Positions 5,114-48,195 of a DNA stretch of 64,000 nucleotides are shown here, one piece after another. The DNA is from an uncultured Lachnospiraceae bacterium (GTDB taxonomy: Bacteria > Bacillota > Clostridia > Lachnospirales > Lachnospiraceae), in assembly GCA_947588995.1 (NCBI GenBank), contig CANPZI010000007.1:62001-126000 (forward strand). The letters run 5' to 3'. Both the position numbers and the translations under genes were made by a program. Numbering within the stretch: position 1 is the first letter of the stretch; every line of letters begins with the position of its first letter. A model generated the notes under the pieces. That model was not told where the DNA came from, searched no databases, and saw nothing but the letters and a program-made list of their open reading frames with translations.

Positions 5114-5938
5114 CTACTTCTTCATAGCATACACCGGCTTGACCCGCGTCAGCGCGAAACCGACACCGGCCACGATGATCGCCGCGACGACCGCCTCCAC
5201 GATACCGTTGAACGTCACCACACCCATGATGACATCGAGCACGGCCTCTCCGGCCACGCCGACCGCCTGCGCGTAGGCCTCCTTATACAGGATAAAGATG
5301 CCGCTCATGACGAAGAGCGTGTTCGTATACGCCCCCGCGAGCCCCGCATAGGCGAGCGCCACACTGGCGTTCTCCCTCTTGCTGCCGCTGAGCGTGAGCA
5401 CGATCATCAGCACGATGCCGGCGATCAGCCCGATCACCGTACACACGGCCGCGCTCAGTGCCTCCGGGAACAGACGAATCAAAAATGCCCTGACCGAGAC
5501 AAACAGAATCAAAGACGCCGCTGCATTCACGACAATCTTGCCTCTTCCCTGTCCGCCGCCGAGTGCTCTGCGGATCAAAAGATAGACAAAATAGGGGACA
5601 ATGCCCACCAGAATCCTCGGTACAAAGCAGATGTAGAGGCTCTTGAAGATGCCGGACACGCCGACCATATTGTAGGCGAGAACGGGCGAAAATACGAACG
5701 CCGACGCCGTCGCCGCCTTGAATGTGTTGTTGATAAAACTGGTGAATCCAAATACGAATCCCAAAAATGCACCTTTCTTCGGTCCGAGAAATAGCGCTCC
5801 CAGGATGACCGGGATATGAATGATCGTCGCGTTGATCACGACAAGCGGGATATACCCCAGCGGTGTGAATGCCATAATCACAATTATGGCGGTGAACAGT
5901 GCCGTAAGCACGAGTTCGTAGGTCTTTTCATTTTTCAT
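5114..5938 (-). CDS. ECF transporter S component, possibly pantothenate-specific
   Basis: Multi-TM protein (MKNEKTYELVLTALFTAIIVIMAFTPLGYIPLVVINATIIHIPVILGALFLGPKKGAFLGFVFG); ATG at 5938 after AGGAGGATC. Substrate inferred only from neighbouring coaX/coaBC. Confidence 0.8.
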   Translation of the reverse strand: MKNEKTYELVLTALFTAIIVIMAFTPLGYIPLVVINATIIHIPVILGALFLGPKKGAFLGFVFGFTSFINNTFKAATASAFVFSPVLAYNMVGVSGIFKSLYICFVPRILVGIVPYFVYLLIRRALGGGQGRGKIVVNAAASLILFVSVRAFLIRLFPEALSAAVCTVIGLIAGIVLMIVLTLSGSKRENASVALAYAGLAGAYTNTLFVMSGIFILYKEAYAQAVGVAGEAVLDVIMGVVTFNGIVEAVVAAIIVAGVGFALTRVKPVYAMKK

Positions 5939-35146: not shown

Positions 35147-35983
35147 TTACAGCGTCACAATCACGCCGCCGTCGTTGGCATACATACTGCTGACCCCGGC
35201 GGTGTCCATGATGACGACATCCCTGTAGGAGGCGCGCTTCTCCATCAGCTCCCGCATGTATTCGGCCCGCTCGGGACAGTTACAGTGGCTGATCATGAGC
35301 GTCCGCTCCTCCGTATCCGCCACATCCGCCACGAGACAATCCGCCATTCTGGCCAGAGCCTTATTCGTGCCGATGGCCTGCCCTTTCTGCTCAATCTCTC
35401 CGAATGTTCCCACCATCACCGGCTTGATATTGAGCGCCGAAGCCATCAGCGCCTTGACGCCGGTGAGTCTGCCGTTCTTGCGCAGCGTCTCCAGATTGTC
35501 CAGCACGAAATAAGTGCGCATCCTGCGCTTGAAAATCTCGATCTTCTTCACTGTCTCCTCGAAAGACAGGCCGGCCTCCCGGTACTGCATGATGCGCATG
35601 GCCAGCTGCGTCTCTCCGCAGCTGGCAGACTCCGAATCGACCACATGGATTTTCCGCCCGCCGCACTTCTCAAGATACATATCCTTTCCCGCCACAGCGC
35701 TGTTGTAGCTGCCGCTCAAATGGGAGGACAGCGTCACCACGTACACCTCCTCCGCGTCAGCGCCGTATGCCTCCAGATACTTTTCCGGCGACGGGCAGGC
35801 GGATTTCGGGCACTGCGGACAGGCGGCCACCTGCGCCAGAAATTCTTTCTGGTCAAAATGCTCGTCGTCCATCACCTGATAATCACCCACCTCGAGGCGA
35901 AGCGGCACGACGCGGAATCTGTCGTCTTTTTTATACTCTTCCTGAAGCTCGCAGCAGCTGTCCACTACAATTTTGTAACTCAT
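35147..35983 (-). CDS. DegV family protein
   Basis: MSYKIVVDSCCELQEE, VVTLSSHLSGSYNSAV, DNLETLRKNGRLTGVKAL. Confidence 0.93.
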   Translation of the reverse strand: MSYKIVVDSCCELQEEYKKDDRFRVVPLRLEVGDYQVMDDEHFDQKEFLAQVAACPQCPKSACPSPEKYLEAYGADAEEVYVVTLSSHLSGSYNSAVAGKDMYLEKCGGRKIHVVDSESASCGETQLAMRIMQYREAGLSFEETVKKIEIFKRRMRTYFVLDNLETLRKNGRLTGVKALMASALNIKPVMVGTFGEIEQKGQAIGTNKALARMADCLVADVADTEERTLMISHCNCPERAEYMRELMEKRASYRDVVIMDTAGVSSMYANDGGVIVTL

Positions 35984-36083
35984 AAAGCCTCCATAACCAT
36001 TCTACATAGTTTTTATTACCACATATAATAACATGAGGGTTCTGCTTTGTAAATAGCGGATCAGAAAAATATAGCCGGAACGC

Positions 36084-36121
36084 TGTATTTGCCGAATAGG
36101 ATATGGTATAATATCCGCGAA
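36084..36121 (+). promoter_or_regulatory. Putative promoter for the repeat leader/DUF5721 gene
   Basis: TGTATT-17-TATAAT, the -10 lying inside GGATAT-GGTATA-ATATCC. Confidence 0.5.
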
Positions 36122-36192
36122 AGCAATGAGCCGTGCGAAGACGGCGAACGGAGAAGCGGCTGCTTGCAGACGTATTCTCCGGACGACGGATT

Positions 36193-36393
36193 CATAGGGC
36201 GAATGCCCGTGACCGAGAGAACACGAAGAGTTCTCGAGGGAGGCACGGCTATTTACACGAAACGAGCCATAGGGCGAATGCCCGTGACCGAGAGAACACG
36301 AAGAGTTCTCGAGGGAGGCACGGCTATTTACACGAAACGAGCCATAGGGCGAATGCCCGTGACCGAGAGAACACGAAGAGTTCTCGAGGGAGG
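36193..36393 (+). repeat. Tandem repeat, 75-bp unit, two complete copies plus a 51-bp partial
   Basis: CATAGGGCGAATGCCCGTGACCGAGAGAACACGAAGAGTTCTCGAGGGAGGCACGGCTATTTACACGAAACGAGC at 36193 and 36268, partial from 36343; the two full copies look identical. Confidence 0.95.
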
Positions 36394-36436
36394 TACGACT
36401 GATCAGAGTACAGGATACAAGACACGGAGGCAGATT

Positions 36437-36940
36437 ATGGTCGCACTGAAAATCACGAATGTCAGACAATTCATGGAGAAATTTCTGAAAGGCGGAGACT
36501 TCGACTCTTTTCTTCTGGAGGAGGCGGTCGTCAGCACCTACAACACCTTTCACATAGACGGCCGCCAGAACAGAGCGTTCTACACGGCCGAGGAGTGGGA
36601 CGACCACGAGATCCGTCCCTACGACTTCTCCCTGTGGAAAACCATGCGCCCGCTCTGCTTCGACCTGATCAAGGGTACACACACGCCCACCGCTTTTCGC
36701 TTTGTGCTGCACCTGATGCCCGACTACGCGGACTCAATCCTGCGCGGCGGCGAGACGAATGTGACGGCCGAACAGGTGAAAGCTTTCGTCCTGACCGTCA
36801 AATACGACGGCGCCGGCCTCACGCTCGTGACCGGCACCGCTTTCCACACTTTCCTGCCAGACAGGACGCCGGACGCCCTGTGGGACGCTGCGCTCAAACA
36901 GTTCCTCTCGAGAAAGGAAATTGCGTTTGAAGAATTGTAA
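36437..36940 (+). CDS. DUF5721 family protein
   Basis: MVALKITNVRQFMEKFLKGGDFDSFLLEEAVVSTYNTFHIDGRQN; ATG at 36437 after GGAGG. Confidence 0.85.
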   Translation: MVALKITNVRQFMEKFLKGGDFDSFLLEEAVVSTYNTFHIDGRQNRAFYTAEEWDDHEIRPYDFSLWKTMRPLCFDLIKGTHTPTAFRFVLHLMPDYADSILRGGETNVTAEQVKAFVLTVKYDGAGLTLVTGTAFHTFLPDRTPDALWDAALKQFLSRKEIAFEEL

Positions 36941-44619: not shown

Positions 44620-45003
44620 TACAAGAAAGCCATGCCATTCATAAGCCGACTCTGTCGGCTTATTTCATGCCGGGCGTGCGAACTGCTCTTACAGTTCACC
44701 CGCGCCTATTCGCAAAATCGCCCCTGCGTGCTCCTCGCTGCTGTCGCAGCTTATTTTGCTCATAAGCGGGCGCTCTCTCCGTCAAAATATCCCCGTCCGG
44801 CTTCTTATCTCTACAAGAAAGCCATGCCATTCATAAGCCGACTCCGTCGCCTTATTTCATGCCGGGCGTGCGAACTGCTCTTACAGTTCACCCGCGCCTA
44901 TTCGCAAAATCGCCCCTGCGGGCTCCTCGCTGCTGTCGCAGCTTATTTTGCTCATAAGCGGGCGCTCCCTCCGTCAAAATATCCCCGTCCGGCTTCTTAT
45001 GCA
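44620..45003. repeat. Two tandem copies of a 192-bp hairpin-rich repeat
   Basis: TACAAGAAAGCCATGCCATTCATAAGCCGACTC... starts at 44620 and 44812; the copies differ at only a few positions. Confidence 0.93.
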
Positions 45004-45044
45004 AGCATAAAGCCGTCCGGGGATATTTGACGGGTGAACTGTAA
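44972..45044. repeat. Large imperfect inverted repeat closing the 192-bp array next to the pilT stop
   Basis: CCGTCAAAATATCCCCGTCCGGCTT... and ...AAGCCGTCCGGGGATATTTGACGG, followed by GTGAACTGTAAGA, inverted copy of TCTTACAGTTCAC in the repeats. Confidence 0.75.
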
Positions 45045-47919: not shown

Positions 47920-48195
47920 AGGAAGCCCCCAAAGTCCATTTACTCTATTCTATGAACCGGCGGCGTTCCGAGTGCCTTTCCACCCGAAAAAGGACCATGC
48001 CCGCTCCAGGCACGGAGCCGGGAACGGTTTCCATAAGTTCATTATACAAACACAACTTGCAAAATACAATATAAATATACGCACATTTGTACGCTTTTCA
48101 GGTAATGTACATAAAATACCCGCATTTCAGCCAAACAAACTGTTCTCGCGGCATTCGCCAAACGGACCGGCAGGCTTGTCAGCCCGGCTCATTGC

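Follow-up and report, generated by a model that had tools for sequence, protein, structure and literature searches.

Within the window (the whole 64,000-nucleotide stretch of DNA analyzed here), the gene for a DUF5721 protein begins at the ATG at 36437, has a ribosome-binding site, GGAGG, at 36426, and is preceded by a long leader. The promoter ahead of this leader was present exactly as the original prediction gave it, with a -35 hexamer TGTATT (36084-36089), a 17-nt spacer, and a -10 hexamer TATAAT (36107-36112); a TG one base 5' of the hexamer (TGGTATAAT) makes this an extended -10. The palindrome proposed around the -10 is also there, but it is not kept in the relatives G005 and G010 and therefore looks incidental; we discarded it as a meaningful feature. 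Downstream, TRF reported a tandem repeat at 36193-36397 (period 75, 2.7 copies, 99% matches, score 403), which ends about 40 bp 5' of the start codon. As predicted, it consists of two identical 75-bp units lying downstream of the -10; the partial unit behind them, however, measures 55 bp and not 51 bp, and has a degenerate closing arm, GTACGAC (36393) in place of GCACGGC. The open reading frame that begins at 36089 (36089-36940) is a read-through frame, and no terminator-like site was found on the + strand of the leader. The features are collected in Table 1.

Table 1. Features of the DUF5721 leader and gene (window coordinates)
Feature	Coordinates	Strand	Basis
DUF5721 transcription unit promoter, TGTATT-17-TATAAT, TG ahead of the -10	36084..36112	+	extended -10
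5' CRYG motif, proposed pseudoknot partner	36116..36119	+	covariation between position -6 and linker position 2
Complete structured leader element (model R1)	36123..36252	+	121.8 bits, E 5e-27 (this locus is itself among the 43 sequences used for R1)
Conserved GCAATGAGC	36123..36131	+	identical in 168/180 elements (part of the set was found by a pattern that demands it)
P1 5' strand, GCCGTGC	36130..36136	+	pairs with 36243-36249
P2 long hairpin, CUUG-type loop (GCTTGC)	36137..36193	+	compensatory changes in 22/23 pairs
Unit 1, 75 bp (P3-P4-P1' module plus spacer)	36193..36267	+	TRF
P3 hairpin GGGC-GAAT-GCCC	36197..36208	+	near-invariant in family
P3-P4 linker GTGA, partner of CRYG in pseudoknot	36209..36212	+	covariation
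P4 hairpin, tandem G.A at base	36213..36239	+	compensatory changes in 9/10 pairs
P1 3' strand, GCACGGC	36243..36249	+	covariation, sequence
Unit 2, 75 bp, identical to unit 1	36268..36342	+	TRF
Partial unit 3, 55 bp	36343..36397	+	TRF
DUF5721 gene (PF18988)	36437..36940	+	orthologues use the same start codon

The repeat is not a feature in its own right but a duplication of one half of a larger element, whose first base is 36116. A search of the genome from which the window derives, using this region, returned partial matches elsewhere, and the object common to these matches begins 5' of the repeat, at GCGAAAGCAATGAGCC. Further copies were collected by searching relatives' genomes and by a pattern scan of named genomes (records mostly titled Lachnospiraceae), in which the cultured relatives Parablautia muri and Hespellia stercorisuis are examples with intact copies, and 43 copies were aligned (alignment A1) as the basis of a covariance model, R1. 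Bases 36116-36252 are one full copy of a structured element of about 130 nt that is widespread in Lachnospiraceae and comprises four helices and a probable pseudoknot. In A1, 92.6% of the cells at helix positions are paired, compared to 71.2% in shuffles, a figure favored by the structure having been drawn from A1 itself; this does not apply to the compensatory (two-sided) changes, which were found in 33 of the 44 base pairs. The covariation score was 0.536, against at most 0.11 in every slid control, and the fold of the leader is far more stable than that of shuffled sequence (z of -4.9 and -5.8). P1 is paired in 100% of cells, with compensatory changes at two pairs, and P3 has the family-wide form GGGC-GAA(N)-GCCC. 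The hairpins first noticed at this locus, GGGC-GAAT-GCCC and GAGAAC...GTTCTC, are real helices, kept across the family with strong covariation, but the helix CCGTG...CACGG said to enclose the latter did not hold up: it shows 0 compensatory changes, is 73% paired, and does no better than shuffles. A pairing between the 5' GCAA and UUGC in the P2 loop was also considered and rejected, as the loop varies (CUUG, CUCG, CCAG, CUGG, UUUA) while GCAA stays constant.

Tandem duplication of the element's P3-P4-P1' module gave rise to the 75-bp units. R1 matches again over units 2 and 3 (36259-36402, 40.6 bits), and since GCACGGC is intact in both full units (36243-36249, with the second copy at 36318-36324), the 5' strand of P1 has two possible partners; the extra units would supply additional P3-P4 hairpins and a second way of closing P1. 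Tandem duplication, of part of the element or of the adjoining leader, was found in 43 of 180 distinct elements, and its start is most often close to the ATAGGGC that precedes P3. The unit lengths in these 43 cases range from 48 to 217 and leave remainders of 0, 1, and 2 on division by three in 11, 12, and 20 cases, respectively; it follows that the 25-codon length of the unit here is a matter of chance and that the open frame 36089-36940 is a by-product. The doubt originally voiced about a coding function was therefore well placed, and a non-coding repeat is supported. Translation of the repeat, or of a short upstream reading frame from the ATG of GCAATGAGC, might still be suspected from the open 25-codon frame at this locus and from the presence of the ATG in 172/180 copies. 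Apart from the lack of frame in the unit lengths, the upstream reading frames end at scattered positions (median, 17 codons), the peptides inspected have little in common beyond the part dictated by P1, no ribosome-binding site precedes the ATG, and ATT and ATA variants occur. We consider it very improbable that the element encodes peptide, and with neither repeat lengths nor ends of reading frames showing a frame, the coding repeat and the leader peptide were dropped as candidates.

The proposed pseudoknot joins the 5' CRYG motif to the P3-P4 linker (pairs C116-G211, G117-U210, and C118-G209). CRYG varies at one position, mostly G versus A, and this position covaries with the Y of the linker GYGA, the pair counts being 80 G-C, 33 G-U, 24 A-U, and 1 A-C; none of the other 5'-linker combinations tested for covariation rose above the reporting threshold. 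Parsimony on the element tree assigns T, already present or newly arisen, to the linker base in 11 of the G-to-A changes, C in 1, and other bases in 2. Across the helices as a whole, G-U cells likewise outnumber A-C cells, by 36 to 18 in an unfitted alignment. An excess of G-U over A-C, both in the pseudoknot pair and in the helices, favors selection on RNA of the sense strand, and judging from these alignments the element probably works as RNA on that strand. Two observations do not fit smoothly. G-U pairs are rare overall (1.9% of cells, versus 7.7% in 15 tRNAs of the same loci), which sits poorly with an RNA. In addition, with canonical promoter spacing transcription would begin near 36119, which leaves the pseudoknot bases 36116-36118 immediately 5' of the RNA; either the transcript starts earlier, or the covariation between CRYG and the linker has another cause.

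Within the genus, R1 found the element in 53 of 60 genomes, at 1 to 29 copies each, with 8 matches in the window's own genome. Across the family (membership in Lachnospiraceae taken from record names) it was found in 100/200 genomes and 99/199 genera; a class-wide draw yielded it in only 17 of 291 genomes, nine of which belong to the same family, the window's own genome included. Two weaker R1 matches elsewhere in the window, at 5338-5461 (24.9 bits) and 48127-48195 (15.4 bits), were not counted as copies.

This distribution bears on the claim that the repeat forms the leader of DUF5721 in particular. A DUF5721 orthologue is present in 57/60 genomes of the genus, and of 30 such loci examined (two of them cut short by contig ends), only that in the window has an R1 match; the other 29 orthologous loci have none and lack an intact element. 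Relatives of the element stand ahead of hundreds of unrelated genes in gut Lachnospiraceae. The proteins encoded downstream, 114 in number, fall into 121 Pfam families, of which RelA_SpoT is the largest with six members. It is therefore not a DUF5721 regulator. That repeat copy number tunes this one gene has in its favor that the element sits in the DUF5721 leader here, but against the 29 element-free loci and the same element ahead of unrelated genes we give this next to no credence. The more general part of the original prediction, a tandem structured leader, presumably of RNA, fared better, as the hairpins covary and the element lies just 3' of the -10.

Orthologous sites also record how the element comes and goes. 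G005 and G010 have the same -35/-10 context at DUF5721 and no element, and the G019 locus retains an apparent remnant of the element's 3' end. This comparison shows that the promoter is older than the insertion and that the element was added behind it in the window's own lineage. Among 30 pfkA leaders, 8 carry an intact element, five genomes (the window's own, G010, G001, G026, and G079) carry apparent decayed pieces, and none was seen in the others. In the window's own genome, the pfkA leader still has its promoter, but of the element it has lost everything beyond the initial ~20 nt; in G005 and G012 the pfkA element is whole. Taken together, presence, decay, and absence at DUF5721 and pfkA indicate that insertion takes place behind a -10 already there and that the element may subsequently be lost, and this presence/absence pattern at orthologous sites is that of an insertion element or MITE. 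Such ready loss and decay speak against the element mattering much to the host gene. No target duplication stands out by eye at the DUF5721 insertion. Separately, a dispersed hairpin, CCATATCAG...CTGATATGG, with a -10 at its 3' end was seen in the window's own genome and in G005, G012, and G019; it lies upstream of the -10 at four loci (L004, L007, L009, and L168), and in G019 it replaces the front of the DUF5721 leader.

We then considered placement in 73 unbiased R1 hits with flanking sequence. With genes called by a simple longest-ORF rule, the downstream gene is in sense in 63 of 68 callable cases (binomial p, 8e-14), and the upstream gene may point either way (50 in sense and 21 in antisense); 3 hits have convergent neighbors. 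In 48 of the 73 hits a -10, defined as a hexamer with at least 5 positions equal to TATAAT, ends exactly 10 nt 5' of GCAATGAGC; 36 of these 48 also have the TG of an extended -10. About ten more hits abut the stop codon of the upstream gene, for example in an apparent pta-ackA gap (genes named by ORF size and surroundings), and in other genera copies lie directly behind terminator T-tracts. At 4 of 16 loci (L289, L292, L296, and L299), a T-box leader lies directly upstream, so that the element stands between T-box and gene.

Such placement could also be expected of a selfish mobile element that inserts where transcription opens the DNA, namely after -10 hexamers, terminator T-tracts, and stop codons, and whose fold serves its own spread through single-stranded DNA hairpins or an RNA intermediate, any effects on the host being incidental. 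The fixed register to the -10, the up to 29 copies per genome, the pfkA leaders with the element present, decayed, or absent, the DUF5721 genes of close relatives without it, and the downstream genes that share no function are all consistent with this, as is a compact cousin (described below) that is 5'-fixed behind terminators and often 3'-truncated. Against it, the strong sense bias and the almost complete lack of A-C combinations in the pseudoknot pair speak for selection acting on RNA, covariation within retained copies is deep, no target duplication was identified, and a blastn search that used a single element returned no copies from phages or plasmids, which led us to set aside mobile DNA carried by either. 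We regard a purely selfish element as unlikely, yet as the alternative deserving most weight.

The interval between element and gene start has a median of 73 nt, and T-runs of at least 5 occur in only 4 of 45 such intervals; these figures point neither to attenuation nor, as judged by distance, to a masked ribosome-binding site. The same figures weigh on the idea of a ligand-binding riboswitch, or of a leader bound by one regulatory protein, for which the many downstream genes would form a regulon. The 5'-leader position, the conserved unpaired residues GCAAUGA, AUA, and GYGA, the tandem G.A, and the pseudoknot would suit either. The intervals reveal no expression platform, the downstream genes have no shared pathway, and the element is frequently lost; two of the features by which a riboswitch or attenuator would be recognized, a platform and functionally coherent downstream genes, were lacking, and we think this explanation quite improbable.

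The evidence best supports a folded leader that acts in cis on the fate of the mRNA, and a recurrently inserted, cis-acting 5'-leader RNA is what the element most likely is; we put the probability that the ~130-nt element was added behind a promoter and acts as a folded, sense-strand 5' leader on the fate of the mRNA at roughly 60%. At DUF5721 it was added behind the existing promoter in the window's own lineage. As RNA of the sense strand, it would become the folded 5' leader of whatever gene lies downstream, or an intercistronic leader behind stop codons and terminators. With less confidence, we suggest that the effect is on stability, on processing, or on binding of a protein or ligand, and that the element is probably neither an attenuator nor a mask of the ribosome-binding site. 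A broader formulation, which we offer tentatively and would not count on, is that of a family of RNA-structured elements that insert in a fixed transcription register (10 nt behind the -10 or, in related forms, directly behind terminator T-tracts), give genes a folded 5' leader, and then multiply their modules. The element occurs in roughly half of the Lachnospiraceae genera sampled, yet its form is unrecognized by Rfam 15. If it acts on mRNA, it shapes the expression of central genes of dominant gut bacteria, among them those for phosphofructokinase, RelA/SpoT-type synthetases, and response regulators, and many others; if it is mobile, being locked to the -10 would mean that it chooses its targets in an unusual way linked to transcription. 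In either case, pfkA and DUF5721 provide natural pairs with and without the element in which its effect can be measured directly.

Rfam 15 gave no match for window positions 35900-36600 at E<=5. No paper on the motif was found in the literature; thousands of RNA candidates have been reported from the human microbiome (Fremin and Bhatt 2021, PMC8040213), and an unnamed listing in the supplements of that work is possible. The closest known family is Clostridiales-1 RNA, RF01699 (Weinberg et al. 2010, PMC2864571), which is listed as probably not cis-regulatory. Like the element, it is a multicopy structured RNA of Clostridia and is found in the same genomes. Two divergent R1 members, L301 and L297, match RF01699 from end to end with 44.3 and 30.7 bits, the former being the best score of any R1-family member and below the gathering threshold of 48 bits. 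In the alignments of these two, a similar order of helices can be seen: P1 closing a long P2 with a GCUUGC loop, followed by P3 and by P4 with a GGAG/CGGA internal loop. Conversely, R1 scores no higher than 12.9 bits at those RF01699 sites on which it was tried, RF01699 proper occupies other sites in the same genomes, and in the RF01699 sequences examined, unlike in the element, the 5' GCAATGAGC and the lock to the -10 were not seen. We have accordingly filed the element as a relative of RF01699 and not a member.

The window also holds a second tandem repeat, at 44620-45000 (192-bp unit, 2 copies, 97%), which overlaps an RF01699-like RNA at 44882-45043 on the - strand (39 bits, below the cut-off); the 3' part of this RNA is duplicated, as in the DUF5721 leader. 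The compact cousin, a T-tract followed by ACGCG(A/G)GCAATGAGCC..., lies directly behind apparent intrinsic terminators, at window positions 48127-48195 (- strand) and at loci L356-L372 and L375. One pattern found 33 copies in the window's own genome and none in a reversed control; the 5' end is fixed, truncation is frequent at the 3' end, and the genes on either side of some copies seem to be convergent.

T-box leaders (RF00230) are likewise structured 5' leaders of Bacillota, but Rfam makes no T-box call on the element, and where the two meet, the T-box is a separate neighboring structure. Compared by description and not by sequence, the BOX elements of Streptococcus pneumoniae (PMC3049150) are also small, dispersed, modular repeats that fold when transcribed; their internal module, boxB, may be absent or present in several copies, and they show no link to gene function (PMC3049150). 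BOX placement is the opposite, with enrichment between convergent genes and only slight enrichment between divergent ones (PMC3049150), whereas our element lies upstream, in sense (63/68), and locked to the -10. The variable copy number of an internal module is common to both (43/180 here), and for such modular growth BOX is the best functional parallel.
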